From Onthophagus taurus (lineage: Eukaryota > Arthropoda > Insecta > Coleoptera > Scarabaeidae), in NCBI RefSeq assembly GCF_036711975.1, contig NC_091973.1, positions 7,068,001-7,132,000 on the forward strand: a DNA stretch of 64,000 nucleotides. The letters are read 5' to 3'. Each line of letters begins with the position of its first letter. The stretch's first letter is position 1. This document shows, piece after piece, positions 4,301 through 56,283 of this stretch. Under the pieces are notes generated by a model. That model was not told the origin of the DNA and did not search any database. It worked only from the letters and a program-made list of their open reading frames with translations. Both the position numbers and the translations under genes were made by a program.

Positions 4301-7300
4301 AATAAAAGTGTCCTCTTTCCAATGAACTAACCCGTTTTGAAAAATAACTTTTATTTTTGAGAAAACAATATTTGAAGTTTTGATAAATTTTTCGATGTTA
4401 CAATTTTTATCGATAATCTTCAAAATTCGCTATAAAATTAATTATTTGAAGGATCCTTGTGGAAATATCACCAATTATTAATTAAAGTATCCTCTTTTTA
4501 ATGCAACAAGCCGTTTTGAATAATCGCTTTTAGTTTTTGAGAAATAAATGTTTGAAATGATCGAGAATTTTTTCGAATTTTGCAATTTTTGTCGATTAAG
4601 TTTTAAAAATTCGTATAAAATCCATTTCTTGGAATATGAGTTTGAAAATTTCTCAAAGCGTTAATAAAAGTGTCCTCTTTCCAATGAACTAACCCGTTTT
4701 GAAAAATAACTTTTAGTTTTTGAGAAAACAATATTTGAAGTTTTGATAAATTTTTCGATGTTGCAATTTTCATCGATAATTTTCAAAATTCGCTATAAAA
4801 TTAATTTCTTGAAGGATCATTGTGGAAATATCACCAATTATTAATTAAAGTATCCTCTTTTTAATGCAACAAGCCGTTTTGAGTAATCGCTTTTAGTTTT
4901 TGAGAAATAAATTTTTGAAATGATTGACAATTTTTTTTGGAATTTTGCTATTTTCGCCGATTAAGTTTTAAAAATTCGTATAAAATCGATTTCTTGGAAT
5001 ATGAGTATAAAAATTTCCCAAAGTGTTAATAAGAGTGTCCTCTTTCCAATGAACCAACCCGTTTTGAAAAATTACTTTTAGGTTTTAAGAAAATAATAGT
5101 TGAAGTTTTGATAAATTTTTCGATGTTGCAATTTTCATCGATTTTCAAAATTCGCTATAAAATTAATTTCTTGAAGAATCATTGTGGAAATATCACCAAT
5201 TATTAATTAAAGTATCCTCTTTTTAATGCAACAAGCCGTTTTGAATAATCGCTTTTAGTTTTTGAGAAATAAATGTTTGAAATGATCGAGAATTTTTTCG
5301 AATTTTGCAATTTTTGTCGATTAAGTTTTAAAAATTCGTATAAAATCCATTTCTTGGAATATGAGTTTGAAAATTTCTCAAAGCGTTAATAAAAGTGTCC
5401 TCTTTCCAATGAACTAACCCGTTTTGAAAAATAACTTTTAGTTTTTGAGAAAATAATATTTGAAGTTTTGATAAATTTTTCGATGTTACAATTTTTATCG
5501 ATAATCTTCAAAATTCGCTATAAAATTAATTATTTGAAGGATCCTTGTGGAAATATCACCAATTATTAATTAAAGTATCCTCTTTTTAATGCAACAAGCC
5601 GTTTTGAATAGTCGCTTTTAGTTTTTGAGAAATAAATTTTTGAAATGATCGACAATTTTTTTTGGAATTTTGCTATTTTCGCCGATTAAGTTTTAAAAAT
5701 TCGTATAAAATCGATTTCTTGGAATATGAGTATGAAAATTTCCCAATGTGTTAATAAGAGTGTCCTCTTTCCAATGAACCAATCCGTTTTGAAAAATTAC
5801 TTTTAGGTTTTAAGAAAATAATAGTTGAAGTTTTGATAAATTTTTCGATGTTGCAATTTTCATCGATAATTTTCAAAATTCGCTATAAAATTAATTTCTT
5901 GAAGGATCATTGTGGAAATATCACCAATTATTAATTAAAATATCCTCTTTTTAATGCAACAAGCCGTTTTGAAAAATCGCTTTTAGTTTTTGAGAAATAA
6001 ATGTTTTCGAGAATTTTTTCGAATTTTGCAATTTTTGTCGATTAAGTTTTAAAAATTCGTATAAAATCCATTTCTTGGAATATGAGTTTGAAAATTTCCC
6101 AAAGTGTTAATAAGAGTGTCCTCTTTCCAATGAACTAACCCGTTTTGAAAAATAACTTTTAGTTTTTGAGAAAACAATATTTGAAGTTTTGATAAATTTT
6201 TCGATGTTGCAATTTTCATCGATAATTTTCAAAATTCGCTATAAAATTAATTTCTTGAAGGATCATTGTGGAAATATCACCAATTATTAATTAAAATATC
6301 CTCTTTTTAATGCAACAAGCCGTTTTGAAAAATCGCTTTTAGTTTTTGAGAAATAAATGTTTGAAATGATCGAGAATTTTTTCGAATTTTGCAATTTTTG
6401 TCGATTAAGTTTTAAAAATTCGTATAAAATCCATTTCTTGGAATATGAGTTTGAAAATTTCTCAAAGCGTTAATAAAAGTGTCCTCTTTCCAATGAACTA
6501 ACCCGTTTTGAAAAATAACTTTTAGTTTTTGAGAAAACAATATTTGAAGTTTTGATAAATTTTTCGATGTTACAATTTTTATCGATAATCTTCAAAATTC
6601 GCTATAAAATTAATTATTTGAAGGATCCTTGTGGAAATATCACCAATTATTAATTAAAGTATCCTCTTTTTAATGCAACAAGCCGTTCTGAATAATCGCT
6701 TTTAGTTTTTGAGAAATAAATTTTTGAAATGATCGACAATTTTTTTTGGAATTTTGCTATTTTCGCCGATTAAGTTTTAAAAATTCGTATAAAATCGATT
6801 TCTTGGAATATGAGTATGAAAATTTCTCAAAGTGTTAATAAAAGTGTCCTCTTTCCAATGAACTAACCCGTTTTGAAAAATAACTTTTAGTTTTTGAGAA
6901 AACAATATTTGAAGTTTTGATAAATTTTTCGATGTTGCAATTTTCATCGATAATTTTCAAAATTCGCTATAAAATTAATTTCTTGAAGGATCATTGTGGA
7001 AATATCACCAATTATTAATTAAAGTATCCTCTTTTTAAGGCAACAAGCCGTTTTGAATAATCGCTTTTAGTTTTTGAGAAATAAATGTTTGAAATGATCG
7101 AGAATTTTTTCGAATTTTGCAATTTTTGTCGATTAAGTTTTAAAAATTCGTATAAAATCCATTTCTTGGAATATGAGTTTGAAAATTTCTCAAAGCGTTA
7201 ATAAAAGTGTCCTCTTTCCAATGAACTAACCCGTTTTGAAAAATAACTTTTAGTTTTTGAGAAAACAATATTTGAAGTTTTGATACATTTTTCGATGTTA

Positions 7301-10300
7301 CAATTTTTATCGATAATCTTCAAAATTCGCTATAAAATTAATTATTTGAAGGATCCTTGTGGAAATATCACCAATTATTAATTAAAGTATCCTCTTTTTA
7401 ATGCAACAAGCCGTTTTGAATAGTCGCTTTTAGTTTTTGAGAAATAAATTTTTGAAATGATCGACAATTTTTTTTGGAATTTTGCTATTTTTGTCGATTA
7501 AGTTTTAAAAATTCGTATAAAATCCATTTTTTGGAATATGAGTTTGAAAATTTCTCAAAGCGTTAATAAAAGTGTCCTCTTTCCAATGAACTAACCCGTT
7601 TTGAAAAATAACTTTTAGTTTTTGAGAAAACAATATTTGAAGTTTTGATAAATTTTTCGATGTTGCAATTTTCATCGATAATTTTCAAAATTCGCTATAA
7701 AATTAATTTCTTGAAGGATCATTGTGGAAATATCACCAATTATTAATTAAAGTATCCTCTTTTTAATGCAACAAGCCGTTTTGAAAAATCGCTTTTAGTT
7801 TTTGAGAAATAAATTTTTGAAATGATCGACAATTTTTTTTGGAATTTTGCTATTTTCGCCGATTAAGTTTTAAAAATTCGTATAAAATCGATTTCTTGGA
7901 ATATGAGTATGAAAATTTCCCAAAGTGTTAATAAAAGTGTCCTCTTTCCAATGAACTAACCCGTTTTGAAAAATAACTTTTAGTTTTTGAGAAAACAATA
8001 TTTGAAGTTTTGATAAATTTTTCGATGTTGCAATTTTCATCGATAATTTTCAAAATTCGCTATAAAATTAATTTCTTGAAGGATCATTGTGGAAATATCA
8101 CCAATTATTAATTAAAGTATCCTCTTTTTAATGCAACAAGCCGTTTTGAATAGTCGCTTTTAGTTTTTGAGAAATAAATTTTTGAAATGATCAACATTTT
8201 TTTCGAATTTTGCAATTTTCGCCGATTAAGTTTTAGTTTTAATTTTAGTACATTTTTCTTATTTATTCTAGCTTGAAGAAGAAAAAAATAAATTACAATC
8301 AGAATCTAAAAATCACATCACCCAAATAGACGATTTAAATAATAGTTTATTATGTTTAGAAACAACAATAAAGTCGAAAAATATGTTAATAAAACAATTA
8401 GAAGACTCGTTAGAAAAAGAACGTTCCGAATCTTCCACAAAAACGAAAACAGATACAAAACAATTATCCGATTTAAAAGATGAACTGGCTAAAGTAAAAT
8501 CGAATCTTGCCGAAATCGAAGGAAAACTGGGCGTTTCTGAGAAAAACAAGAAAACGGCTGAAAGTAAAGTCAAAAAGCTTGAGGATGAATATAAAACAGA
8601 AAAGCTTAAATTGCAAAAGAAAGTTAGCGAGTTAGAGGTTGATGTACAAAATGAGAAGAAAAAAATTGATATTCTAAAAAATAATTATGAAAAAGAGCAT
8701 AAAAATAAAGAAATTGAACTGGGGATTTTAAGGAACAAAATTAAAAGTCTTGAAAGCAATGGAAATAGCAAAAAAATGATTAATGAAATTAAGCAGGAAT
8801 ATCAAACTAAAATTGAAAGTAAGTAAAATATTAAAAAAGGCAATCAGAAAAATAAGAAATAAATTTTTTAGAATTAGAAAATGTTATGGGCGAAGAAAAA
8901 AAAGAATATGAAGAATTAACTGCGAAATATGAAATTTTAGAAGAAGAACATGTCGTTACAAAAGCAAAATTAGTAGCGGAAATAAGTGCTTTAAACAAGT
9001 TTGTATTTAATTAATTAATTTGACTAATAATTAAAATACTTTTTCTAGTCAAATAAACGCGATGAAAAAACAAGAAGAAGAAAAAGCTAAAGAAGCCGAA
9101 AAGCATTCTAGAAACGGAAACGATTTAGAAAGAGTACGATTAAAAGCAACATTAGAAGAAACAAAATTGGAATTAGATCAAATCAAAAGGGAATATAACG
9201 TAATTAACGATCAAATGGAATATATGAGAAGAGAAAACGACGAGTTAAGAAGAAAACTTGACGATTACGACAAAGTATCAAAAATACAAAGAACAATAAG
9301 CGCTGATAGTACAGCTCTTGAATTTCATGTAAAAGAACTCCAATCAAAATTATCTAACGCCGAAAAAGCGAAAAAATCGGATTTAGCCGAGTTTAAATTG
9401 CGATACGAAAGTCAAATAAAAATCATTAACGATGAATTGAGATCGCTTCAAACTCAAGTGACTCGATTTAAACGCGAAAGAGATACTTACAAACATATGT
9501 TGGAAGGTGCCCAAAAAACCATAGGCGAATTAAAAAATTCTGACCGACCCAGTTCGAACGAACGAAGAAAATCAGCTAGCAGTATCGATGAAATTGAAGA
9601 TTATAAAATGAAGGTGGCTTCTTTGGAACAACAAATAAGTTGCATGGAAGACGAACTTTCCGAAGCGCGCCTTGAAAGTTCTAAATTAAAAACGGAATTA
9701 GTATCGGGTCGATCAACTTATGAAGTAAAATTATCCGAGCTTCATTCCCGTGTTAATGAGTTAGAAGAAGAAAAGATTTTGATCAGCGGCCGAACGAAAA
9801 TCGCCGGATTAAGAACGCGAATGGAATTAGCTTGGCATAAAGAAAGAGAAGAACAACAAAGGTTACTACAAGAAACGGCAACTTTAGCACGCGATTTACG
9901 ACAAACTTTATACGAAGTAGAACGAGAACGCGACAAAGAAAAATTAGAAGGACGAAGAAAATTAGAACAATTAAAAAAATCCGGGGAAGAAGAACAAGAA
10001 GAAACTAAACGTAAATTAAATGAGCTTCAATGTGATTTATTAGAACTTCGTGATGCACACGCTAAATTACGAACGACTAATGAGAAATTAAGAAGAGAAA
10101 AAGAACGTAATGAGAGAGAACGCGGTGAAATGAAAGGAATTATTCAAGGAAGAAAACGAACCGATCAAAACGAAGATCGCCGATTAAGTATTTTACTTGA
10201 GCAAATTGAAAGTTTAGTTCAATCTGCTCCGGATTGGTGTCAACCAACTCAATCCTATCAAGCACCTTACACTCCAACACCTCCAAGAAGAACAAGAGCA

Positions 10301-11201
10301 TCAAAATCGCGAGAATCTTCACCGGCACTTGAAGGATCTCGAAATTCTAAAGAATCTTCAGTTCCACGAGACGATAAAAGCGCACAATTTAAAACTGCTA
10401 TGCGAAGATTATCAGAAGCTGCCGACGAATTGAAACGATCCCAAAAATTAAATGAGGAAGATCGAGAAAGGGAAAGGATAAAGAGAGCCATGGGAACGAG
10501 AAGAGCAACTTCCACAGAACATGATGATACGGATATTGTTGGAAGAATGCGACATTATTCATCTAGAAATGGAAATCTTACCTCTAGTTTACATAGAAAG
10601 AGTTTATCTTTGGAACACACATCTGCTATTCACGAACAAAATATTTGGAAAGGAGACGCTGACAGCGTTTCTAGCGTGCAATCTTTAGAATATGGATCGG
10701 ATGCAGAAAATGCAAGGTACGCAAGAAGAGATGTCGGCTTGGATAGTCGATTATCAGGAGGATCAACACAAAGCGATGTTGTCGGCGAGAAGAAAAAGAA
10801 GAAAGGGATTATAGGAAAATTAAAGAAATTTACCAAGTCAAGGAGTATTGATGACCAAGACCCTGGACATTTTTCTTCAAATGAAGCACTTTCTTTGACT
10901 AAGGTTTTTTAAAATTTTTCATTTCTCTTCATTTTTTCACAACTTCCATTTTTAGCCTGATTCTACTTCAGATGTTGCCGAAGACACAAAAGGAAGTAAG
11001 AAAGATTTAAAGGAACGATTAACCGGTATTTTTAAGCGAAGTGGTTCATCGTCAAGGAGTAACAGGTATATTTATCATATTTCGTAATTTATTTTTATGT
11101 ATCCTTGTTATTGCATTTTTAGTTTGGAAAGGCAGTCGAAACCAAAGGATAATACAAGTTCGACGCAAAGACCTTTGATGCGAACCGAATTCCAAAGATA
11201 A
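1323..11201 (+). CDS. Long coiled-coil protein, SOGA/MTCL-like (3' part of gene)
   Basis: Exons read from splice signals and phase: about 1323-1447, 1773-1863 (or 1509-1863), 2048-3318, 8272-8818, 8872-8998, 9049-10903, 10956-11065 and 11123-11201. All junctions keep one frame and give about 1400 residues; the 5' end lies outside the window. The recurring block (QLKFAEEE-A-NLRKK, LELSEQEASVLRKKVEEL, LQAVEQEANLLRTRVQNL) resembles the repeated N-terminal block of SOGA/MTCL1 proteins, which are large coiled-coil proteins; MTCL1 cross-links microtubules. Nearly all of the product is heptad-rich Glu/Lys/Leu coiled coil. After about 10210 it becomes Ser/Arg-rich and disordered, with a basic KKKKKGIIGKLKKFTKSRS segment (10786-10842) and a related ERLTGIFKRSGSSSRS (11012-11059) that could bind membrane or microtubules (inference). 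The 4.95-kb intron 3319-8271 is almost entirely satellite S1. The family name is moderately sure, the coiled-coil nature very sure. Confidence 0.75.
1509..1772 (+). other. Possible in-frame alternative exon extension
   Basis: Between the exon ending at 1447 and the short exon starting at 1773 there is an open stretch of exactly 88 codons from an AG at 1507-1508. It runs in the same frame into the downstream exon. It encodes a non-repetitive peptide (including VELPVYRKPVPLVLFN and EEKAIQTDIP) unlike the coiled coil around it, and its codons are less AT-rich than nearby introns. It could be retained by use of the upstream acceptor. The polypyrimidine tract there is weak, and the acceptor at 1771-1772 is better. 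A donor at 1744 would give the wrong phase for a separate cassette exon. Confidence 0.4.
3335..8245. repeat. Satellite S1 array, about 363-bp dimer, intronic
   Basis: About 13.5 copies. The marker TCCTCTTTCCAATGAAC falls at 3585, 3948, 4311, 4673, 5038, 5398, 5763 and 6119, giving spacings of 356-365 bp. Each copy consists of two diverged halves of about 181 bp. One carries TCCTCTTTCCAATGAAC and AACAATATTTGAAG, the other TCCTCTTTTTAATGCAAC and AATAAATTTTTGAAATGATC. The array starts about 15 bp after the splice donor at 3319 and ends about 25 bp before the acceptor of the exon at 8272, so it fills the intron. Confidence 0.95.
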
Positions 11202-19859: not shown

Positions 19860-21060
19860 CATTAAAATAGACTGAAATTCAAAAAGAATACAACATAATG
19901 AATCAATAGAGACGGATTTCTCCTAAAAAGCAAGGCTTCAAAACCTGATGTAAAAATCTTACTAGACTCACTAAAAAATAGAAATACTATATCCGAATAT
20001 AAAGAAAGTCAATCAAGAAACTTTGCATCCAAACATGAAAATACTGAATCATACTCGGCAATAATTTGCAATATGGAAACAGAAATAAAAGATGACGCTC
20101 TAAGCGCTTTTCTAGTAGAAAAAAACATTAGACACAGATATTGTAAACCTACACTTAAAGTCCGAATCATAACAGGAGATGTAAATGCTTGATGTTCAAT
20201 CATTATAAAATAATAGTAAGCGACGCGCCTCCATCAGCACCAATAGCTTGTGCCAAATGTTCATCATTCTCCCACATAACCTAAAACTGTGACAAAATAA
20301 TAACCTGCGGTAAATACAAGGAAAAACGCAGAACAGATAAATGTCCCCACAACTTTACCCGAAATTTGCAGAGCATGCGGGATAGAAGGTCACCAAGCGT
20401 GGTCCTTCAAATGCAAAAAGCAACCAACACAACCAATAGAAAGAATCCCATCAATAAAAAATAAATCCGCCAACAAGAAAACCAATGAAATAGAAAGTTC
20501 AATAACCCAAAACTCTAGAATACACAAACCAATTATCACACACGACTTCGTTATCGACACATAACGATCAACGGCAACCAAATGATGATGGAAATATCAG
20601 CTTTACCAAAAAAAGCATCTAATTTTTAATTACATACAATAAAACGATATTGACCTAGCTCTACTTACAGAAACCAAAATGAAGACAGACTACACTATTC
20701 AGTACAGAAACTGGGATACTATCCAAAGGCAAGGCTTTCAAACAACAAATGCCAGAGGAGGTTCAATAATAATGTCGAATCCAACATACAAACTAAAGAA
20801 AGCCTTCCATAAACAATCTTTATAATGAATGCCTACACTGCTCATCCCTTTTAAAAAATTTCCTAGTATATTTCCACCCTCACTATCCACTAGAAACAAA
20901 TGTATTTCGAAAAGCGTCACAATACTCATACTTCAATCATTTCTGGACAACTCAAATTTCATAAAAAGGCTCACACACCTAACGTTCATTATGACAGGAA
21001 ACAATGACACCACACCAGACATCATCATCCACACCGACAACCTAAAAGATGTAACAACAT
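19860..21060 (+). pseudogene. Decayed jockey-like retrotransposon (ORF1 zinc knuckles and endonuclease start)
   Basis: No long ORF, but the translated frames show a retrotransposon gag-like region. They include ending residues resembling LKVRIITGDV (20152-20181), a CCHC knuckle CAKCSSFSHIT-NC (about 20250-20290) with an internal stop, and a second knuckle CRACGIEGHQAWSFKC (about 20370-20415). Further on, DIDLALLTETKMKTDYTIQY (about 20650-20705) resembles the start of an endonuclease domain. Stops and frameshifts are frequent. The 3' part is missing and the copy ends near 21060. Confidence 0.6.
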
Positions 21061-21361
21061 AGCTACAACTATTATAGTATTGTATGATTGAATTTAATAT
21101 ATCCAAAATAATTCAAAATATTAAAACATTACTTTTTAAACTAGTTTTTGTACCAAAAAAAAACACAAAAAACTAAACTTGAGACAAGATGTTATTCGCA
21201 TGCGCTTTCTTGTTATTGTATTTTAACTCTTATGCGCTAGAGACTTAGCGTATTTTGTTTCCGTTTAGTAACGTCTTATTCTTTCAATACAATTGTGAAA
21301 TTATAACAGTTTTATATACTTTTTAAAAGAATATTATTACGCCGTTGGTGCGAACGTTGCT

Positions 21362-21925
21362 ATGAACAGTAGTGTTGAAATTATTTCTGAAGAAAACTTA
21401 AATGGATCTATTGCACACATGGATAGAAAGAAAGATGAAGGTAATTTTCAAATAAATACAAGCAAATATAAAATTAAAGATTAAAATATTTCTTTTTAAT
21501 TCTAGATTACGAGAACGAATTTTTTGGTTCCTCAGAATTCGGAGTATACACATCATTTGTTAAAATTAGCAGTTCTGATGGTCGCTTCAACGATCGTATT
21601 ACCGGTCGAATAATGATATATCCTTTAATGGAAACTAAAAACGTTTTACATAACAGCGAAATGGTATTTTTTAGATTTCTTTATATGAATTTATCCAAAA
21701 TAATTACTTTTCTAGCATCTAATGCAAGCTGATCGTGGATATTTTAGTATTACAATCAAGAATAATGATAACACAATTAACAATCCAGCTACGGTTCAAT
21801 ATATCACACCAGAAACCGTTGGTTTACTTTATGTACGAGTTCCAATAGGATCAACTTACACGATTAGAAACATTGGTGTTGCAAAACTGGAGTTATATTA
21901 TTGTCAAAAATCAATATATGAATAG
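21362..21925 (+). CDS. Cupin-only protein resembling the CENP-C C-terminal domain
   Basis: Three exons, 21362-21440, 21506-21663 and 21716-21925, with good splice sites and matching phases. They give a complete 148-residue protein. Residues about 31-145 read like the CENP-C/Mif2 cupin fold: a FF...GVYTSFVKISSS strand region, GRIMIYPL, a central sheet, and the strongest match RVPIGSTYTIRNIG (120-133) followed by AKLELYYCQ. CENP-C proteins end in the pattern 'FYVP.GN.Y.I.N......L.F.Q'. In CENP-C this domain dimerises the protein at centromeric chromatin. Upstream of the cupin, CENP-C normally has a nucleosome-binding CENP-C motif and a long disordered region; here only 30 acidic/polar residues precede it. 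The region upstream of the ATG contains a transposon remnant, not more exons. It may be a truncated paralogue or a separate cupin protein. The assignment is by motif recall and needs a profile search. Confidence 0.65.
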
Positions 21926-21984
21926 TTTGTAAAATTTTATATCTATATATTTTTGTTGTTATTTTAAAATTTAATTTGGTGTAA

Positions 21985-22560
21985 TTATATATTGGAATAC
22001 TTTTTCGGCAAATAAAATGTAAGATTAAACAATTAGAATCTCGTTTAGGTGTTGGACACTGCATATAATAATCAAGTTCAACCCCAATAGGACTTTTTTC
22101 ATTGAATACAACTTTATTTATATCAGGTTCACTCATCAATATATATACCCATACAGTTGCAGAATCCTGATGACATAAATAATTTCTTTGTGCCGATGTT
22201 GCGTTGGGCGAGGCTAACAAAAAATTCACATAATTCGTTATATTGAACAGAACAGCTTGTTACCAGTTCAGCAATCCAATTTTCGTGCAGATCATAGTGA
22301 TGATCCTGTTGAACTTCTCTAAGGCACTCGGCAAATACATTACTTTGCCGCATACTGGGGTTATTGGGACTGGGTCGAAGTGCTGTGGAACTAATGGATA
22401 ACTATTTAACAAGTAGAACACAAAAGGTAAGAGTTGGTGATCGGGAATCGCAAGAAGTTATTGTTGGTTTTGGTGTTCGGTCCTGGGGCCGCTTCTTTTT
22501 GCACTCTATACTTCTAGATTCGCTACCCGGTTGACCTATTCCAACATTAACATATATGAT
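21985..22560 (-). pseudogene. Unrecognised gene fragment, tail-to-tail with the cupin gene
   Basis: The minus strand carries an open stretch (22353-22129, including LHENWIAELVTSCSVQYNEL) and, in another frame, PDINKVVFNEKSPIGVELDY and QCPTPKRDSN (about 22115-22035). A near-identical peptide block occurs again at 29935-30040, also on the minus strand and also beside a satellite S1 array. A further minus-strand ORF at 22584-22402 (ESRSIECKKKRPQDRTPKP) may belong to the same unit. The frames do not join cleanly, so I treat this as a remnant. Family not known to me; a MADF/BESS-type or transposon-derived protein is possible. Confidence 0.4.
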
Positions 22561-22569
22561 GTATGATTC

Positions 22570-25500
22570 AAATAAAAATTGCAAAATTCGAAAAAATTGT
22601 CGATCAATTCAAAAATTTATTTCTCAAGAACTGAAAGTGATTTTTTAAAACGGCTTGTTGTATTAAAAAGAGGATACTTTAATTAATAATTGGTGATATT
22701 TGCACAAGGATCCTTCAAGAAATTAATTTTATAGCGAATTTTGAAAATTATCGATGAAAATTGCAAATTATTAAAATTTCAAATATTGTTTTCTCAAAAA
22801 CTAAAAGTTATTTTTCAAAACGGGTTCGGTCATTGGAAAGAGGACACTTTTATTAACACTTTGGGAAATTTTCATACTCATATTCCAGGAAATGGATTTT
22901 ATACGAATTTTTAAAACTTAATCGACGAAAATTGCAAAATCGATTATTTCAAAAATTTATTTCTCAAGAACTAAAAGTGATTTTTCAAAACGGATTTTTG
23001 CATTAAAATGAGGATACTATAATTAATAATTGGTGATATTTCCACAAGGGTCCTTCAAGAAATTAATTTTATAGCGAATTTTGAAAATTATCGATGAAAA
23101 TTGCAACATCGAAAATTTTATCAAAACTTCAAATATTGTTTTCTCAAAAACTAAAAGTTATTTTTCAAAAGGTGTTGGTTTATTGGAAAGAGGACACTTT
23201 TATTAACACTTTGGGAAATTTTCATACTGATATTCCAGGAAATGGATTTTATACGAATTTTTAAAACTTAATCGACGAAAATTGCAAAATCGATTATTTC
23301 AAACATTTATTTCTCAAGAACTAAAAGTGATTTTTCAAAACGGCTTTTTGTATTAAAAAGAGGATACTTTAATTAATAATTGGTGATATTGCCACAAGGA
23401 TCCTTCAAGAAATTAATTTTATAGCGAATTTTGAAAATTACAACATCGAAAATTTTATCAAAACTTCAAATATTGTTTTCTCAAAAACTGAAAGTTATTT
23501 TTCAAAACGTGTCGGTTCATTGGAAAGAAGACACTTTTATTAACACTTTGGGAAATTTTCATACTCATATTCCAGGAAGTGGATTTTATACGAATTTTTA
23601 AAACTTAATCGGAAAAAATTGCAAAATTCGAAAAAATTGTCGATCATTTCAAAAATTTATTTCTCAACAACTAAAAGTGATTTTTCAAAACTGTCTTTTA
23701 CATTAAAGAGAGGATACTTTAATCAATAATTGGTGATATTTCCACAAGGATCCTTCAAGAAGTGAATTTTATAACGAATTTTGAAAGTTATCGATGAAAA
23801 TTGCAATTATCAAAACTTCAAATATTGTTTTCTCAAAAACTAAAAGTTATTTTTCAAAAGGTGTTGGTTTATTGGAAAGAGGACACTTTTATTAACACTT
23901 TGGGAAATTTTCAAACTCATATTCCAAGAAATGGATTTTTTACGAATTTTTAAAACTTAATCGACGAAAATTGCAAAATCGATTATTTCAAAAATTTATT
24001 TCTCAAGAACTAAAAGTGATTTTTCAAAACGGCTTTTTGTATTAAAAAGAGGATACTTTAATTAATAATTGGTGATATTGCCACAAGGATCCTTCAAGAA
24101 ATTAATTTTATAGCGAATTTTGAAAATTGCAACATCGAAAATTTTATCAAAACTTCAAATATTGTTTTCTCAAAAACTGAAAGTTATTTTTCAAAACGTG
24201 TCGGTTCATTGGAAAGAAGACACTTTTATTAACACTTTGGGAAATTTTCATACTCATATTCCAGGAAGTGGATTTTATACGAATTTTTAAAACTTAATCG
24301 GAAAAAATTGCAAAATTCGAAAAAATTGTCGATCATTTCAAAAATTTATTTCTCAACAACTAAAAGTGATTTTTCAAAACTGCCTTTTACATTAAAGAGA
24401 GCATACTTTAATCAATAATTGGTGATATTTCCACAAGGATCCTTCAAGAAGTGAATTTTATAACGAATTTTGAAAGTTATCGATGAAAATTGCAATTATC
24501 AAAACTTCAAATATTGTTTTCTCAAAAACTAAAAGTTATTTTTCAAAACTGGTTGGTTCATTGGAAAGAGGACACTTTTATTAACACTTTGGGAAATTTT
24601 CATACTCATATTCCAGGAAATGGATTTTATACGAATTTTTAAAACTTAATCGACGAAAATTGCAAAATCGATTATTTTAAAAATTTATTTCTCAAGAACT
24701 ATAAGTGATTTTTCAAAACGGATTTTTGCATTAAAAACAGGATACTATAATTAATAATTGGTGATATTGCCACAAGGATCCTTCAAGAAATTAATTTTAT
24801 AGCGAATTTTGAAAATTGCAACATCGAAAATTTTATCAAAACTTCAAATATTATTTTCTCAAAAACTGAAAGTTATTTTTCAAAACGTGTCGGTTCATTG
24901 GAAAGAAGACACTTTTATTAACACTTTGGGAAATTTTCATACTCATATTCCAGGAAGTGGATTTTATACGAATTTTTAAAACTTTATCGGAAAAAATTGC
25001 AAAATTCGAAAAAATTGTCGATCATTTCAAAAATTTATTTCTCAACAACTAAAAGTGATTTTTCAAAACTGCCTTTTACATTAAAGAGAGGATACTTTAA
25101 TCAATAATTGGTGATATTTCCACAAGGATCTTTCAAGAAGTGAATTTTATAACGAATTTTGAAAGTTATCGATGAAAATTGCAATTATCAAAACTTCAAA
25201 TATTGTTTTCTCAAAAACTAAAAGTTATTTTTCAAAACGTGTCGGTTCATTGGAAAGAAGACACTTTTATTAACACTTTGGGAAATTTTCATACTCATAT
25301 TCCAGGAAATGGATTTTATACGAATTTTTAAAACTTAATCGACGAAAATTGCAAAATCGATTATTTCAAAAATTTATTTCTCAAGAACTGAAAGTGATTT
25401 TTCAAAACGGCTTTTTGTATTAAAAAGAGGATACTTTAATTAATAATTGGTGATATTTCCACTAGGATCCTTCAAGAAATTAATTTTATAGCAAATTTTG

Positions 25501-25780
25501 AAAATTATCGATGAAAATTGCAAATTATTAAAATTCCAAATATTGTTTTCTCAAAAACTAAAAGTTATTTTTCAAAACGGGTTCGGTCATTGGAAAGAGG
25601 ACACTTTTATTAACACTTTGGGAAATTTTCAAACTCATATTCCAAGAAATGGATTTTTTACGAATTTTTAAAACTTAATCGACGAAAATTGCAAAATCGA
25701 TTATTTCAAAAATTTATTTCTCAAGAACTATAAGTGATTTTTCAAAACGGATTTTTGCATTATAAAGAGGATACTATAAA
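22570..25780. repeat. Satellite S1 array with a 689-bp higher-order unit
   Basis: Same satellite as at 3335-8245 but in the opposite orientation. The marker ATTGGAAAG falls at 22832, 23182, 23519, 23871, 24208, 24560, 24896, 25248 and 25588. Spacings in the middle alternate 352 and 336-337 bp, so the true repeat there is 688-689 bp, made of two dimers (four monomers). One dimer type carries GGTGTTGGTTTATTGG or GGTTGGTTCATTGG, the other CGTGTCGGTTCATTGG. The array ends about 270 bp upstream of the ANKRD27 start codon. Confidence 0.92.
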
Positions 25781-26056: not shown

Positions 26057-28492
26057 ATGGGGACGGAGTATGATGAAAACTTGAATGAAAATGAATTTTT
26101 TAAACAACTGAAGAAAAACTTTCATGATGTTCTTCGGACGGCATCAGATAACAACTGGATCATTTGCATACCTCGAAAAGGATCATTTAGTGATTTAAAA
26201 TTAACAAAGATTGACGTTTTGGAACATATTTTAATACGAGGTTTAGAATATCGCAATTTAACCGGGAAAGTGGTTAAGAAAGAAGGCAATAATTTAATAT
26301 ATGAAAATAGAACTGTTTCAATTCTGTTCTATGAGGATTTTGTTATTAAAAATTCAAAATTTTCTATTTGGTGTATTGACCAATTTTTATTTGGCAATAT
26401 TGAAAATCTTGAATTAAAGAGTATACAGATAAATAATTTTACAGATTGTATAAATTTATTGTGGAATGATAATTGTTTGGTTTTGGATGAGATTAATAGT
26501 TTGGTAGAGATATTTTTATCAAAAAACCATTTAAATGGCGATGATTTTGATATAAAACGCTTACAAAATGATATTAAAGATTTATTTGATAATTGTTTTG
26601 AGGTTGCTTTAACTTTTGGGTATGAACAGGATGACAACTTGATGAAAAATTTAAAACTATCAGTTGAATCATTTATGCAAGTATGTTTAAAAGAACATTT
26701 ATTTAATTATATTTGCGATTATACAGCAGCAAGCGATGCGAATATCAACAAAATAATCAGAAATTCCCAACAAATATCACTAAAAAATTTTGAATTAGAA
26801 AAATATTTCGAGATAATCCCATTGGCACGCTTAGAACTAAACAAAATTAATAACGGAAACGTCGTTTTAAACAAAATTATTTGTTTAAAACGCGTTTTTA
26901 ATATATTAAAAGGCGTGGACGCCGAAATTTTATTAAAAATCTTTATTTTTTTAATAATAAAGTCGAACGTTTTTAATTGGATCGCAAATTTAGTTTTTAT
27001 AACAAACTTTCATTTTAGCAAAGCCAACTTCTGCGATGAAAACGATTTCATAATAACAACATTAAACGCCGCTTTAAAATTTATAACCGAAAATGATTTA
27101 AAAATAAACGAGCAACTGGAAAAGAATTCATTTAATTCGATTATTAAATTAATAAAAGACGGCAATTTAACGATGTTAATTAAAAAATCTTTTTTAAAAG
27201 TAGAAAATAATTTCATTAATCAGCTTTGTCATCCCTTATGCTCCTGCGATTCGTGTGAAATTTTATTAAAAGCAAATCAAAATTGCGAAATTGATGAAAA
27301 AGGTGCATCTTTTTTACATCACGCGTCTAAATATAATCATCCCGATATAATTCATTTTTTAATCATCGAAGGTTTCAATATAAATTCCCCCGATTTTAGA
27401 GGTTACACCCCTTTGCATTACGCGGTTAGTTATGGAAATCAACACGGAACTTTTTTATTATTACATTCGGGTTGTAACGCTAATTTAAAAGATTTTGAAG
27501 AAGGAAATACGCCTTTACACGTTGCTGTTAAAAACGGACACGAGAATTGCGTCGAAGCTTTGTTATTTTTTACAAATAACAATGGAGAAAATATTGACGT
27601 TAATTGTTTAAATAATAACAACGATACTCCGTTACATTTCGCGGCTAAATTTGGGTATTTAAACTTGGTTAAACTCCTCGTCGATTTTGGGGCGATAAAT
27701 AAAGTGAATAAAAAAGGTTTAACGCCGTTATCGTTGGCTCATAATAGTTTTATTAAAGATATTTTAATAAATAATATGATTATAAACGACTACGTTATTA
27801 TTCAAATTCAAAAGGAAGAAACAAATAATTCAACAACCAAAAATTTTAACCAAATCAAAAAAATGGATTTACTTTTAAAAGCTATCGAAAATAACGATAT
27901 GCCTTTAACTTGTTTTTACATTGGCATATCATTACCTAACTTACAACAGTTTTCAGTAAATAATTGCCATCCTCTATGTAATTGCGAGAAATGTTTCGAA
28001 AAAAATTATTCACATAATTCCCAGTCAATTTCATTAGAAAATAAAAAAAATAATCTCAATATAAATTCTTGTAACCCCGAAGGTTACACCCCTTTACACA
28101 TAGCCGCCAAATTTGGACGATTAGATATTTTACGATTACTTTTAGATTCCGGCGCTTTAATAAATTCGAAAACTTGTAAAGATTTATATTCCGCGTTACA
28201 TTTGGCTTGCAAATATAAAAGAAAGCGAATAGTTAAAGAGTTATTAAAATGCGGTAATTGCTTAATTGATTCTCGCGATCATTTTGGAAATACACCCCTG
28301 CATTACGCCGTTTATAATAACGACTTGGAAATATTTGAAATGTTATTAAGCGAGGGTTGTGACTTTAATATTAAAAATAATCAAGGAGAAACTGTATGGA
28401 AAATCGCCGAAAAAATGAATCATTTAAGCATTTTAAGAATACTTAAGGAAAGGGATAAAAAGGAGCGTTGTTCCGCCGAATTTTTATTGTAA
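26057..28492 (+). CDS. Ankrd27: VARP / ankyrin repeat domain-containing protein 27
   Basis: A single uninterrupted ORF of 811 residues. The N-terminal region (1-115) resembles VARP. Residues about 240-345 form a VPS9 domain (LKGVDAEILLKIFIFLIIKS and FITNFHFSKANF), the Rab21-family GEF module. Cysteine motifs CHPLCSCDSC (391-400) and CHPLCNCEKC (637-646) are the two zinc 'fingernails' that in VARP bind the retromer subunit VPS29. Ankyrin repeats lie at about 410-580 (TPLHYAV, TPLHVAV, TPLHFAA, TPLSLA) and 675-800 (TPLHIAA, SALHLAC, TPLHYAV). In animals VARP acts on endosomes, linking Rab21/Rab32/38, retromer and VAMP7 in recycling to the surface. It is shorter than the human protein (about 1050 residues), and no intron is visible in the coding part, which is unusual for such a long gene in this window. 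Its 5' side abuts satellite S1. Confidence 0.93.
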   Translation: MGTEYDENLNENEFFKQLKKNFHDVLRTASDNNWIICIPRKGSFSDLKLTKIDVLEHILIRGLEYRNLTGKVVKKEGNNLIYENRTVSILFYEDFVIKNSKFSIWCIDQFLFGNIENLELKSIQINNFTDCINLLWNDNCLVLDEINSLVEIFLSKNHLNGDDFDIKRLQNDIKDLFDNCFEVALTFGYEQDDNLMKNLKLSVESFMQVCLKEHLFNYICDYTAASDANINKIIRNSQQISLKNFELEKYFEIIPLARLELNKINNGNVVLNKIICLKRVFNILKGVDAEILLKIFIFLIIKSNVFNWIANLVFITNFHFSKANFCDENDFIITTLNAALKFITENDLKINEQLEKNSFNSIIKLIKDGNLTMLIKKSFLKVENNFINQLCHPLCSCDSCEILLKANQNCEIDEKGASFLHHASKYNHPDIIHFLIIEGFNINSPDFRGYTPLHYAVSYGNQHGTFLLLHSGCNANLKDFEEGNTPLHVAVKNGHENCVEALLFFTNNNGENIDVNCLNNNNDTPLHFAAKFGYLNLVKLLVDFGAINKVNKKGLTPLSLAHNSFIKDILINNMIINDYVIIQIQKEETNNSTTKNFNQIKKMDLLLKAIENNDMPLTCFYIGISLPNLQQFSVNNCHPLCNCEKCFEKNYSHNSQSISLENKKNNLNINSCNPEGYTPLHIAAKFGRLDILRLLLDSGALINSKTCKDLYSALHLACKYKRKRIVKELLKCGNCLIDSRDHFGNTPLHYAVYNNDLEIFEMLLSEGCDFNIKNNQGETVWKIAEKMNHLSILRILKERDKKERCSAEFLL

Positions 28493-30164: not shown

Positions 30165-32545
30165 TTCGATTATTAATTAAAGTATCCTCTTTTTAATGCA
30201 AAACGCCGTTATGAAAAATCGCTTTTAGTTTTTGAGAAATAAATTTTTGAAATGATCGACAATTTTTGTAAATTTTGCATTTTTTACTGATTAAGTTTTA
30301 AAAATTCGTATAAAATCCATTTCTTGGAATATGAGTATGAACATTTCCCAAAGTGTTAATAACAGTGTCCTTTCTCTAATGGACCAACACGTTGTGAAAA
30401 ATAAGTTTTAGTTTTTGAGAAAACAATATTTAAAGTTTTGATAAATTGCAATTTATATCGATAATTTTAAAAATTCGCTATAAAATTAATTTCTTGAAGG
30501 ATCCTTGCGGATATATCACTAATTATTAATTAAAGTATCCTCTTTTTAATACAACAAGCCGTTTTGAAAAATCGCTTTTACTTTTTGAGAAATAAATTTT
30601 TGAAATGGTCGATAATTTTTTCGAATTTTGCAATTCTCGCCGATTAAGTTTTAAAAATTCGTATAAAATCCATTTCTTGGAATATGAGTATGAAAATTTC
30701 CCAAAGTGTTAATAAGAGTGTCCTCTTTCCAATGAACCAACACGTTGTGAAAAATAATTTTTAGTTTTTGAGAAAACAATATTTAAAGTTTTGATAAATT
30801 GCAATTTATCGATAATTTTCTAAATTCGCTATTAAATTAATTTCTTGAAGGATCCTTGTGGAAATATCATCAATTATTGATTAAAGTATCGTCTTTTTAA
30901 TGCAACAAACCGTTTTGAAAAATCGCTTTTAGTTCTTGAGAAATAAATTTTTGGAATAATCGATTTTGCTATTTTCGCCGATTAAGTTTTCAAAATTCGC
31001 ATAAAATCCACTTCTTGGAATATGAGTATAAAAATTTCCCAAAGTGTTAATAAGAGTGTCCTCTTTCCAATGAAACAACCCGTTTTGAAAAATAACTTTT
31101 AGTTTTTGAGAAAACAATATTTGAAGTTTTGATAATCTCCAATTTTCATCGATAATTTTCAAAATTCGCTATAAAATTCATTTCTTGAAGGATCCTTGTG
31201 GAAATATCACCAATTATTAATTAAAGTCTCCTCTTTTTAATGCAAAAAGCCGTTTTGAAAAATCACTTTTAATTCTTGAGAAATAAATTTTTTTAATGAT
31301 CGGCAATTTTTTCAAATTTTGCAATTTTCGCCGATTAAGTTTTAAAAATTCACATAAAATCCACTTCTTGGAATATGAGTATAAAAATTTCCCAAAGTGT
31401 TAATAAGAGTGTCCTCTTTCCAATGAAACAACCCGTTTTGAAAAATAACTTTTAGTTTTTGAGAAAACAATATTTGAAGTTTTGATAATCTCCAATTTTC
31501 ATCGATAATTTTCAAAATTCGCTATAAAATTCATTTCTTGAAGGATCCTTGTGGAAATATCACCAATTATTAATTAAAGTCTCCTCTTTTTAATGCAAAA
31601 AGCCGTTTTGAAAAATCACTTTTAATTCTTGAGAAATAAATTTTTTTAATGATCGGCAATTTTTTCAAATTTTGCTATTTTCGCCGATTAAGTTTTCAAA
31701 ATTCGCATAAAATCCACTTCTTGGAATATGAGTATGAAAATTTCCCAAAGTGTTAATAAGAGTGTCCTCTTTCCAATGAAACAACACGTTTTGAAAAATA
31801 ACTTTTAGTTTTTGAGAAAACAATATTTGAAGTTTTAATAATCTCCAATTTTCATCGATAATTTTCAAAATTCGCTATAAAATTCATTTCTTGAAGGATC
31901 CTTTTGGAAATATCACCAATTATTAATTAAAGTCTCCTCTTTTTAATGCAAAAAGCCGTTTTGAAAAATCACTTTTAATTCTTGAGAAATACATTTTTTT
32001 AATGATCGGCAATTTTTTCAAATTTTGCAATTTTCGCCGATTAAGTTTTAAAAATTCGTATAAAATCCATTTCTTGGAATATGAGTATGAAAATTTCACA
32101 AAGTGTTAATGAAAGTGTCCTCTTTCCAATGAACCAACACGTTGTGAAAAATAAGTTTTAGTTTTTGAGAAAATAATATTTAAAGTTTTGATAAATTGCA
32201 ATTTATATCGATAATTTTCTAAATTCGCTATTAAATTAATTTCTTGAAGGATCCTTGTGGAAATATCACCAATTATTAATTAAAGTCTCCTCTTTTTAAT
32301 GCAAAAAGCCGTTTTGAAAAATCACTTTTAATTCTTGAGAAATAAATTTTTTTAATGATCGGCAATTTTTTCAAATTTTGCAATTTTCGCCGATTAAGTT
32401 TTAAAAATTCGTATAAAATCCATTTCTTGGAATATGAGTATGAAAATTTCACAAAGTGTTAATGAAAGTGTCCTCTTTCCAATGAACCAACACGTTGTGA
32501 AAAATAACTTTTAGTTTTTGAGAAAACAATATTCGAAATATCACC
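30165..32545. repeat. Satellite S1 array, third copy, about 353-bp dimer
   Basis: About 6.8 dimers in the same orientation as the intronic array at 3335-8245. The marker spacing is 353, 338, 353, 353, 353, 353 bp. Two internal dimers around 31010-31720 are nearly identical, pointing to recent local duplication. The array stops where the inverted junction sequence shared with 34765-34845 begins. Confidence 0.92.
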
Positions 32546-34939: not shown

Positions 34940-37900
34940 AATTTTAGCTTCAACTTGTGATATAAATCGTTTCGTAACTCCAAAAAATAAAGTTACTACG
35001 ATTTTTTTAAATTTTGACGTTTTCGAACATAACCTAATTCAAGTTAATTAATTTTGAAGAACTTTTTTCTAAAAATTTTTATTATTAACATATTAATTTT
35101 TAAATCATATCAGGAAATATCATCCTTTATCTTCAATTTGTGATATAAATCACTTCTTAATTCGAACAAATAAATTCAAGACGTTTTTTTTTTAATTTTG
35201 GCATGTTCGAGATTATTTTTTTTTAACTTTTTCTACAAATTTTTATTATTAATACAACTATTTTTATACCACATCCAAAAATATGTTATTTAAGCTTCAA
35301 CTTGTGATATAAATCGTTTCGTAACTCCAAAAAATAAAGTTAATACGAATTTTTGAAAACTTTTACTTTTTCGAACATAACCTAATTCAAGTTAATTAAT
35401 TTTGAAGAATTTTTTTCTAAAAATTTTTATTACTAACATATTAATTTTTAAATTCATATTATAAAATATCATCCTTTATCTTCAATTTGTGATATAAATC
35501 ACTTCTTAATTCGAACAAATAAATTCAAGACGATTTTTTTAATTTTGGCATGTTCAAGATTATTTTTTTTTAACTTTCTCTACAAATTTTTATTATTAAT
35601 ACAACTATTTTTATACCACATCCAAAAATATGTTATTTTAGCTTCAACTTGTGATATAAATCGTTTCGTAACTCCAAAAAATAAAGTTAATACGAATTTT
35701 TAAAACTTTGACGTTTTCGAACATAACCTAATTCAAGTTAATTAATTTTGAAGAACTTTTTTTTAAAAATTTTTATTCTTAACATATTAATTTTTAAATC
35801 ATATTATAAAATATCATCCTTTATCTTCAATTTGTGATATAAATCACTTCTTAATTCCAACAAATAAAGTTAATGCGATTTTTTTTAATTTTGGCATGTT
35901 CGAGATTATTTTTTTTTTATCTTTTTCTACAAATTTTAATTATTAACAAGACTATTATTATACCACATCCAAAAATATAATATTTTAGCTTCAACTTGTG
36001 ATATAAATCGTTTCGTAATTCCAAAAAATAAAGTTACTACGAATTTTTAATATTTTGACGTTTTCGAACATAACCTAATTCAAGTTAATTAATTTTGAAG
36101 AACTTTTTTCTAAAAATTTTTAGTGTTAACATATTAACTTTTAAATCATATCAAGAAATATCATCCTTTATCTTCAATTTGTGATATAAATCACTTCTTA
36201 ATTCCAACAAATAACGTTAAGGCGATTTTTTTAAATTTTGGCATGTTCGAGATTATTTTTTTTTTATCTTTTTCTACAAATTTTAATTATTAACACGACT
36301 ATTTTTATACCAGATCCAAAAATATAATATTTTGGCTTCAACTTGTGATATAAATCGTTTTATAACTCAAAAAAATTAAGTTAATACGATTTTTTTTTAA
36401 TTTTGACGTTTTCGAACATAACCTAATTCAAGTTAATTAATTTTGAAAAACTTTTTTCTAAAAATTTTTATTATTAACATATTAATTTTTAAATCATATC
36501 AGGAAATATCATCCTTTATCTTCAATTTGTGATATAAATCACTTCTTAATTCGAACAAATAAATTCAAGACGATTTTTTTTAATTTTGGCATGTTCGAGA
36601 TAATTTTTTTTTTAACTTTCTCTACAAATTTTTATTATTAATACAACTATTTTTATACCACATCCAAAAATATGTTATTTTAGCTTCAACTTGTGATATA
36701 AATCGTTTCGTAACTCTAAAAAATGAAGTTAATACGAATTTTTAAAATTTTGACGTTTTCGAACATAACCTAATTCAAGTTAATTAATTTTGAAGAACTT
36801 TTTTCTAAAAATTTTTATTATTAACATATAAATTTTTAAATCATATCAGGAAATATCATCCTTTATCTTCAATTTGTGATATAAATCACTTCTTAATTCG
36901 AACAAATAAATTCAAGACGATTTTTTTTAATTTTGGCATGTTCGAGATTATTTTTTTTTAACTTTTTCTACAAATTTTTATTATTAATACAACTATTTTT
37001 ATACCACATCCAAAAATATGTTATTTTAGCTTCAACTTGTGATATAAATCATTTCGTAACTCCAAAAAATAAAGTTAATACGAATTTTTGAAAATTTTTA
37101 CTTTTTCGAACATAACCTAATTCAAGTTAATTAATTTTGAAGAACTTTTTTCTCAAAATTTTATTATTAACATATTAATTTTTAAATCATACCAGGAAAT
37201 ACCATCCTTTATCTTCAATTTGTGATATAAATCACTTCTTAATTCCAACAAATAAAGTTAAGGCGATTTTTTTTTAATTTTGGCATATTCGAGATTATTT
37301 TCTTTAATCTTTTTCCACAAATTTTAATTATTAACACGACTATTTTTATAGCACATCCAAAAATATAATATTTTAGCTTCAACTTGTGATATAAATCGTT
37401 TCGTAACTCTAAAAAATGAAGTTAATACCATTTTTTTTAATTTTGACGTTTTCGAACATAACCTAATTCAAGTTAATTAATTTTGAAGAACTTTTTTCTA
37501 AAAATTTTTATTATTAACATATTAATTTTTAAATCATATCAGGAAATATCATCCTTTATCTTCAATTTGTGATATAAATCACTTCTTAATTCGAACAAAT
37601 AAATTCAACACGATTTTTTTAATTTTGGCATGTTCGAGATTATTTTTTTTTAACTTTCTCTACAAATTTTTATTATTAACACAACTATTTTTATACCACA
37701 TCCAAAAATATAATATTTTAGCTTCAACTTTTGATATAAATCGTTTTATAACTCAAAAAAATGAAATTAATACGATTTTTTTTAAATTTTGACGTTTTCG
37801 AACATAACCTAATTCAAGTTAATTAATTTTGAAGAACTTTTTTCTAAAAATTTTTATTATTAATATATTAATTTTTAAGTCATATTATAAAGTATCATCC

Positions 37901-40025
37901 TTTATCTTCAATTTGTGATATAAATCACTTCTTAATTCTAACAAATAAATTCAAGACGATTTTTTTAAATTTTAGCATGTTCGAGATTATTTTTTTTTAA
38001 CTTTCTCTACAAATTTTTATTATTAATACAACTATTTTCATACCACATCCAAAAATATGTTATTTTAGCTTCAACTTGTGATATAAATCGTTTCGTGACT
38101 CCAAAAAATAAAGTTAATACGAATTTTTAAAATTTTGACGTTTTCGAACATTACCTAATACAAGTTAATTAATTTTGAAGAACTTTTTTCTAAAAATTTT
38201 TATTATTAACATATTAATTTTTAAATCATATCAGGAAATATCATCCTTTATCTTCAATTTGTGATATAAATCACTTCTTAATTCCAACAAATAACGTTAA
38301 GGCGATTTTTTTTAATTTTGGCATGTTCGAGATTATTTTTTTTTTATCTTTTTCTACAAATTTTAATTATTAACACGACTATTTTTATACCACATTCAAA
38401 AATATAATATTTTAGCTTCAACTTGTGATATAAATCGTTTCGTAACTCCAAAAAATAAAGTTAATACGAATTTTTAAAATTTTGACGTTTTCGAACATAA
38501 CCTAATTCAAGTTAATTAATTTTGAAGAACTTTTTTCTAAAAATTTTTATTATTAACATATTAATTTTTAAATCATATCAGGAAATATCATCCTTTATCT
38601 TCAATTTGTGATATAAATCACTTCTTAATTCGAACAAATAAATTCAAGACGATTTTTTTTAATTTTGGCATGTTCGAGATTATTTTTTTTTAACTTTTTC
38701 TACAAATTTTTGTTATTAACACAACTATTTATATACCACATCCAAAAATATAATATTTTAGCTTCAACTTGTGATATAAATCGCTTCGTAACTCAAAAAA
38801 ATGAAGTTAATACGATTTTTTTTAATTTTGACGTTTTCGAACATAACCTAATTCAAGTTAATTAATTTTGAAGAACTTTTTTCTAAGAATTTTTATTATT
38901 AACATATTAATTTTTAAATCATATCAGGAAATATCATCCTTTATCTTCAATTTGTGATATAAATCTCTTCTTAATTCCAACAAATAAAGTTAAGGCGATT
39001 TTTTTAATTTTGGCATGTTCGAGATTATTTTTTTTTTAACTTTCTCTACAAATTTTTATTATTAATACAACTATTTTTATACCACATCCAAAAATATGTT
39101 ATTTTAGCTTCAACTTGTGATATAAATCGTTTCGTAACTCTAAAAAATGAAGTTAATACGAATTTTTAAAATTTTGACGTTTTCGAACATAACCTAATTC
39201 AAGTTAACTAATTTTGAAGAACTTTTCTCTAAAAATTTTTATTACTAACATATTAATTTTTAAATCATATTATAAAATATCATCCTTTATCTTCAATTTG
39301 TGATATAAATCACTTCTTAATTCGAACAAATAAATTCAAGACGATTTTTTTAATTTTGGCATGTTCGAGATTATTTTTTTTTAACTTTCTCTACAAATTT
39401 TTATTATTAATACAACTATTTTTATACCACATCCAAAAATATGTTATTTTAGCTTCAACTTGTGATATAAATCGTTTCGTAACTCTAAAAAATGAAGTTA
39501 ATACCATTTTTTTTAATTTTGACGTTTTCGAACATAACCTAATTCAAGTTACTTAATTTTGAAGAACTTTTTTCTAAAAAATTTTATTATTAACATATTA
39601 ATTTTTAAATCATATCAGGAAATATCATCCTTTATCTTCAATTTGTGATATAAATCACTTCTTAATTCGAACAAATAAATTCAAGACGATTTTTTTTAAT
39701 TTTGGCATGTTCGAGATTATTTTTTTTTTAACTTTCTCTACAAATTTTTATTATTAATACAACTATTTTTATACCACATCCAAAAATATGTTATTTTAGC
39801 TTCAACTTGTGATATAAATCGTTTCGTAACTCTAAAAAATGAAGTTAATACGAATTTTTAAAATTTTGACGTTTTCGAACATAACCTAATTCAAGTTAAT
39901 TCATTTTGAAGAACTTTTTTCTAAAAATTTTTATTATTAACATATTAATTTTTAAATCATATTATAAAATATCATCCTTTATCTTCAATTTGTGATATAA
40001 ATCACTTCTTAATTCCAACAAATAA
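34940..40025. repeat. Satellite S2 array, about 346-bp dimer
   Basis: About 14.7 copies. The marker CATCCTTTATCTTCAATTTG recurs every 345-349 bp (35121, 35470, 35815 and so on). Each dimer has two related halves of about 173 bp: one with CTTCAACTTGTGATATAAAT then CGTTTCGTAAC and a TTTTGACGTTTTCGAAC word, the other with CTTCAATTTGTGATATAAAT then CACTTCTTAATTC and TTTTGGCATGTTCGAGA. Short ORFs inside are by-products of the repeat. Confidence 0.95.
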
Positions 40026-40029
40026 TTTA

Positions 40030-41690: not shown

Positions 41691-41717
41691 TATAAGATTT
41701 TGATTTTGTCTAATGTA

Positions 41718-42198
41718 CAATGTGTTAATTAATTATCGTACCCGACAAAGTATGCAACCAATATCACAGATTGGTATTGCAACGCGACGAAAGTTCCTAA
41801 AAGCAATGGCGACAATTCATTAACTTTAAAAGCCGTTTAAAATATATTTTAATAATTAAAAAAATATTTTAAATATAAAAAAACAATCCAACTTTTTGTC
41901 CTTTTATTTAAAATAATTTTTAGTGTACCCATAGACTGAAGTTAATGTTGAAAGTAGTGGTTATTTTGACTTGTCTGTTGACTTAAAGCAATTGCTAGAA
42001 ACAACGGTAGGTCTAAAAAGAACTGTTTCGAAAAATATAGAGGCAGCAACAAAGCGTACGACAATCACAACAATAACACACGATCAGCTGTCAACATCTG
42101 GTTACTAATTTAAAATTATCCAAGCTACCACTACATATTGAGATATGCAGCCAATATTACACAGGTCACATGGGTTACAATAATTAATTAACACAGTG
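41718..42198. mobile_element. 481-bp member of the AGTGTGTTAATTAATTATCG family
   Basis: The left end CAATGTGTTAATTAATTATC and right end ATAATTAATTAACACAGTG are inverted and TA-flanked. The left interior has GTATGCAACCAATATCACAG as in the other copies. About 350 bp of unrelated sequence lies between the conserved ends. It shows that this family carries different internal cargo in different copies. Confidence 0.7.
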
Positions 42199-42437
42199 TA
42201 TGTGATTTGCTATAATGTAGTTTCCAATTAGGTGTGATTTCGGATGGTAACTATTGATGTTTGCATATAATAATTAATTTTTGACAATTAATAATCTATA
42301 TTATCAAGTTTAGTGTAGGGTATATAATATAAATAAGAATATGTTAAGCAACCAACTTTACTTCATAATAATATATTAATTAAAATGCATACAAAAATGT
42401 TATGGCATAATCAAAAGCGATTTTTGTTGCATAATGT

Positions 42438-56255: not shown

Positions 56256-56283
56256 TTGACTCAAATTCCCAAAAGCGCATAAA

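Follow-up and report, generated by a model that had tools for sequence, protein, structure and literature searches.

A small gene related to the cupin exons of CENP-C, apparently intact, in a repeat-rich region of the Onthophagus taurus genome

Results

A small cupin gene hemmed by repeats

The DNA analyzed here, referred to as the window, is a stretch of 64 kb (C8:7068001-7132000) from the beetle Onthophagus taurus, of whose genome 290.8 Mb in 33 contigs were searched. On its plus strand lies a small cupin gene of three exons, with a spliced length of 447 nt corresponding to 148 codons followed by TAG. Both introns (65 and 52 bases) start with GT and end with AG. An earlier note on this DNA had described a three-exon gene with an intact coding frame and intact splice sites; its exons, its GT-AG introns and its product of 148 residues were all reproduced, and the protein was verified to contain RVPIGSTYTIRNIGVAKLELYYCQ. 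As judged from its sequence, the small cupin gene is apparently intact. The features of the gene and of its immediate flanks are as follows (C7, C8 and C11 are contigs; the C7 gene is described in the next section).

20401-21070, plus strand: repeat remnant adjoining the gene upstream, also present on C11 (96% identity for 20401-20565, 81% for 20598-21070)
21071-22030, plus strand: stretch containing the entire gene
21362-21440, plus strand: exon 1, 26 codons plus one base, N-terminus MNSSVEIISEENLNGSIAHMDRKKDE, ending at a phase 1 donor
21441-21505, plus strand: intron 1, GTAATT...TTCTAG, phase 1, in place and phase as the intron preceding the first cupin exon of C7
21506-21663, plus strand: exon 2, which encodes the first half of the cupin
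21664-21715, plus strand: intron 2, GTATTT...TTCTAG, phase 0, coinciding precisely with the C7 cupin intron, the M/HL split being the same in both genes
21716-21925, plus strand: exon 3, which encodes the rest of the cupin, including VPIGSTYTIRNIG...LELYYCQ, and ends with the TAG stop codon
22011-22016, plus strand: AATAAA, a possible poly(A) signal by position only
22031-22558, unstranded: repeat pieces adjoining the gene downstream, 22031-22129 at 95-97% identity in at least 25 places and 22146-22558 in diverged copies

When 20401-22560 was compared with the genome at the DNA level (very common words being skipped), the stretch 21071-22030 had no other match among those listed, which were the best 40 of 960 candidates scored; the listed matches elsewhere stop at 21070 and restart at 22031. 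A search at the protein level, in which all three candidates were scored, recovered the window gene, one weak second locus at C7:8641161-8641078 (E 1.94) and nothing else, which brings the number of such cupin loci in the genome to two. The cupin gene looks single-copy and is closely hemmed by repeats.

A complete-looking CENP-C-like gene on another contig

The weak second locus belongs to a gene on the minus strand of C7, at about 8647031-8641042, which we modeled by eye from 30 kb of sequence. It starts with a charged, serine-rich open stretch of 1228 codons (8647031-8643348), probably interrupted by a small intron, which is followed by an exon with the CENP-C-motif-like RRSGRQRTQTKFPLCYYMMDS, another exon and finally two cupin exons (8641450-8641302 and 8641236-8641042) separated by a GT...AG intron (8641301-8641237). 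The CENP-C motif reads R-R-S-x-R...P-x-x-Y-W. A stretch resembling it, RRSGRQRTQTKFPLCYY, was found on the same strand at about 8643330, i.e. about 1.9 kb ahead of the cupin exons, with extra residues and a Y replacing the final W.

In Pfam, the spliced C7 cupin ranked PF11699 (Mif2/CENP-C) first, with an E value of 4e-6 and 27.5 bits for a cut-off of 29 bits, followed by general cupin families. This ranking was obtained only with both cupin exons joined, the last exon alone placing Cupin_2 (1.7e-4) ahead of PF11699 (5.2e-4), both below their cut-offs. In the PDB, the top two matches of the C7 cupin, tied at an E value of 0.0056, were plu4264, which we take to be a bacterial cupin, and fission-yeast Cnp3, and plant 7S globulins came after. 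The C7 gene is taken as the CENP-C of this genome, with the proviso that its motif and upstream model were read by eye. The separate full-length CENP-C that the earlier note had asked to look for thus has a good candidate, and, as this gene has its own motif-like stretch and cupin, the exons in the window are not its 3' end.

Relationship of the window protein to CENP-C cupins

Local alignment of the window protein with the C7 cupin gave a score of 108, compared with a mean of 27.5 and a maximum of 64 for shuffled sequences (none out of 5000 reached 108; fitted P 7.5e-11). Omitting the C-terminal strand pair reduced the score to 64 (P 1e-5), and exon 2 alone resembled C7 weakly (P 0.0035; 23 of 5000 shuffles reached its score). 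In a global alignment, 39 of the 103 aligned residues (38%) were identical. The two genes have in common a C-terminal cupin, the signature GSTY.I.N...LELYYCQ and two introns, one before the cupin and one inside it, in the same place and phase; exon 1 showed, by eye, no likeness to the exon that comes before the cupin exons on C7. With two introns in common, shared descent at the level of DNA is by far the most convincing interpretation, and these comparisons lend good support to the view that the window gene arose, at the DNA level, as a paralogue of the final CENP-C exons. The lack of any Pfam match and the first tblastn link to C7, with its E value of 1.94, might have suggested an unrelated cupin or a chance resemblance, yet the shuffle P value and the agreement of both introns in place and phase make this extremely improbable. 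A retrocopy or processed pseudogene of CENP-C was also considered, and was ruled out by the retention of two introns and by the open frame.

A direct match, made independently of C7, was obtained with the cupin stretch of S. pombe Cnp3 (PDB 6o2d), over 21 residues, with VPRGNYYSIKNIGKEAVRLYY aligned with VPIGSTYTIRNIGVAKLELYY (P 5e-5, 0 of 3000 shuffles); the corresponding value for C7 against Cnp3 was 4e-8. The Cnp3 cupin is part of a full-length CENP-C. General searches were negative: the window protein matched no Pfam family at E values up to 10, and, in the PDB, gave matches at chance level only, none of them a CENP-C, as did a two-sequence profile. A search of the genome with the PF11699 profile, in which exons were taken separately and both cupins are divergent, found nothing. 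In viral contigs, 66 stretches fitted a pattern and none was confirmed as a relative. An AlphaFold2 model of exon 3 alone, computed from the single sequence, contained six strands with a mean pLDDT of 49, which is too poor for a fold search.

The window protein can thus be connected with the CENP-C cupin domain (PF11699 type) by homology, through C7 and Cnp3, and not by the Pfam cut-off, which the C7 cupin itself narrowly misses. The identification as a CENP-C cupin made in the earlier note is upheld in this way, by the C7 gene of the same genome and, more weakly, by Cnp3; the first refuter that the note had named in advance, the lack of a match to the CENP-C cupin profile, did literally occur, as the Pfam search gave no hit.

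Because C7 nearly passes the Pfam cut-off and the window copy has no match at all, the window copy is, by its sequence, the more derived of the two. Its alignment to C7 moreover requires an insertion of 12 residues within the cupin, which may have altered the surfaces involved in dimerization and partner binding. This insertion, the identity of 38% and the missing Pfam signal, against 27.5 bits for the C7 cupin, would be in keeping with a CENP-C-derived cupin that no longer acts at the centromere, its fold being kept for another protein-protein role without contact with CENP-C. We find this doubtful, as the window copy shares its most conserved segment, VPIGSTYTIRNIG...LELYYCQ, with both C7 and Cnp3, and as there is no pointer to another partner.

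Only the cupin part of CENP-C appears to be encoded

Two elements of a full CENP-C, the motif for CENP-A binding and the long N-terminal part devoted to the outer kinetochore, are missing from the window gene, which has only 26 residues ahead of exon 2; the C7 locus, in contrast, has both its 1228-codon open stretch and the motif-like RRSGRQRTQTKFPLCYY. Neither a scan of the window in all six frames nor the 148 residues of the protein revealed a CENP-C motif. The pattern used in the six-frame scan was looser than a first one, which had missed the C7 motif as well. A tblastn search of the window with the upstream exons of C7 gave nothing above noise (best E 0.89, 27 residues, minus strand). These scans agree with the statements that no CENP-C motif precedes the cupin and that only the C-terminal cupin is encoded.

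Alternatively, the exons could form the 3' part of a longer gene, a second CENP-C more complete than the one described, with upstream exons located beyond the repeat at 20401-21070. Following an in-frame TGA at 21296, the frame is indeed open from 21299 to the ATG and contains a possible acceptor (AACAG, up to 21309), and widely spaced exons are usual in this family, as illustrated by the distance between motif and cupin in C7. Against this, there is no CENP-C motif pattern in any of the six frames, nothing above noise matches the upstream exons of C7, and repeats box the gene in. We consider a longer gene unlikely.

The open frame and selection

An open frame is by itself weak evidence in this window. 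Frames of 69 and 52 codons were open at 8.3% and 11.7%, respectively, of 18620 random non-satellite window positions, figures that include real genes and transposon frames. The real evidence for the cupin gene is its match to C7 in sequence and introns.

The comparison with C7 is more informative. Over the aligned codons, the two genes were identical at 54, 62 and 43 of 103 first, second and third positions (51% nucleotide identity), and this order is the one expected of a constrained protein. Despite such a divergence, the window copy contains no stop, no frameshift and no lost splice site. When the C7 coding sequence was made to diverge neutrally (3000 simulations per level), 16, 4, 1 and 4 copies were stop-free at 80, 70, 60 and 55% identity, respectively; these simulations comprised substitutions only, and indels and splice sites would lower the counts further. 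A frame remaining stop-free at this divergence is therefore unlikely in the absence of selection, and we conclude from these comparisons that selection has probably maintained the window protein for most of its history.

These data also bear on the idea of a decaying partial duplicate whose frame would be open by luck. The gene does lie between repeats, and small Cenp-C fragments found in Drosophila, some of them next to transposable elements, were judged not to be intact in the account given in PMC12724597. Unlike those fragments, the cupin-only gene of the window is open and spliced, and the absence of any lesion at 51% nucleotide identity, when only 1 to 16 of 3000 neutral runs per level stayed open, makes decay very unlikely.

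Surroundings of the gene

Satellites occupy 32.8 kb of the window, in seven arrays that we grouped in four families, two of which are weakly similar to each other (about 71% over 102-132 bases). The "three different satellites" of the earlier note were therefore about right. The other features of interest in the window are the following.

2098-3333: coiled-coil open reading frame with a SOGA domain, no second full-length copy in the genome
9062-10912, same strand as 2098-3333: coiled-coil open reading frame, no second full-length copy in the genome
11422-13978 and 17160-18149: transposon open reading frames
22600-25779, unstranded: array of the 350-bp satellite, of the same family as 3434-8235 and 30169-32537 and inverted relative to both
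26057-28492: open reading frame of 811 codons with VPS9 and ankyrin repeats, without another full-length match in the genome, lying between two 350-bp arrays

The flanking array, at 22600-25779, is 87.5% identical to the oppositely oriented one at 3434-8235, and the 350-bp satellite was found on at least nine contigs among the best 40 of 1446 candidates scored. As it is so scattered, this family is no mark of the cupin gene, and the satellite setting, which had been called suggestive, looks coincidental. The 346-bp satellite (34941-52222 and 54275-56258) was found on C8 as well as on C1, C3, C5, C6 and C16, at 73-85% identity (best 40 of 375 candidates scored). Its closest listed copies are in the same part of C8, with a piece at C8:7.19 Mb. 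A function linked to satellites was set aside, in view of the presence of the 350-bp family on at least nine contigs and of the 346-bp family on other contigs too.

The gene had also been opposed to the decayed elements around it. It is apparently intact, but it shares the window with long open reading frames that have a single full-length copy (2098-3333, 9062-10912 and 26057-28492). The first two may belong to a single SOGA/MTCL-like gene, the 4.8-kb satellite array between them lying in its intron; the third is Varp/ANKRD27-like.

Elsewhere in the genome, a copy of mitochondrial COX1 spanning the whole profile was observed inside a large contig (C1:21446788-21448128), with 11 in-frame TGA codons under the standard code. 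It fits an invertebrate mitochondrial origin and, judged by eye, looks insect; such a copy would be expected from a recent mitochondrial insertion or from misassembly.

Discussion

The reading that we favor, with a probability of about 0.5, is that the window gene is a cupin-only paralogue of CENP-C. It would be transcribed from its own start, and the product would fold as a CENP-C-type cupin and pair with the cupin of CENP-C or with itself. Alternatively, it would occupy the site where the CENP-C cupin takes its partner, which in flies is the CENP-A chaperone CAL1. Without the CENP-C motif and the N-terminus that recruits the outer kinetochore, such a protein would modulate CENP-C or compete with it rather than replace it.

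In Drosophila, the cupin dimerizes CENP-C, each dimer binding a single CAL1 beside its interface, and CAL1 is lost in dimer mutants (PMC7110144, PMC6900781). The C-terminal half of fly CENP-C (residues 789-1411) is found on centromeres, does not recruit Spc105R or Mis12 and may be dominant-negative, as described in PMC10721191. This half-protein is much longer than the window protein and should carry, by its position, the CENP-C motif that the window protein lacks. Given these fly data, the simplest action on CENP-C of a cupin devoid of motif and N-terminus would be that of a heterodimerization partner, a cap or a competitor for the chaperone. The CENP-C-binding end of CAL1 has, however, been suggested to be dipteran and to have arisen after the split between Diptera and Hymenoptera (PMC13001451), so that a different partner may be in play in this beetle.

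A more specific proposal, which we make tentatively and consider rather improbable in its full form, is that of a dedicated cupin-only regulator, which would cap CENP-C or heterodimerize with it and limit the recruitment of the CENP-A chaperone, perhaps in the germ line, a setting in which a separable copy would be free to evolve in response to centromere conflict. The cupin is the part of CENP-C that makes the dimer and, in flies, receives the CENP-A chaperone. Its presence as a gene of its own beside a complete-looking CENP-C would represent a natural test of the cupin acting alone, and a stand-alone cupin would be a possible route to dosing or blocking centromere inheritance.

Duplicated CENP-C genes have been described in flies, the Cenp-C paralogues being co-retained in the Drosophila subgenus as well as in D. 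vulcana (PMC12724597). According to the same source, the genes of the montium group appear to retain Cenp-C motifs, whereas the window gene is without one. A CENP-C cupin without a recognizable CENP-C motif, the latter having decayed, is also found in dragonfly CenpC. There, however, it belongs to the CENP-C homologue of an insect without CenH3, while in the present case a gene with a motif-like stretch and a cupin coexists on another contig (PMC4359364). In the accessible parts of the open-licence literature, we found no description of a cupin gene standing alone next to a complete CENP-C. To the extent covered by these sources, CENP-C duplicates that keep their motifs were known before, as was a CENP-C whose motif has decayed, and a cupin-only gene beside a complete one would add to these.

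The reverse arrangement has been reported as well, putative CENP-Cs of hymenopterans and of a cockroach having the motif and no cupin; none was recognized in Tribolium in that survey (PMC4359364). As a separate observation, drift such as that seen in the C7 motif RRSGRQRTQTKFPLCYY could account for motif searches missing CENP-C in some insects.
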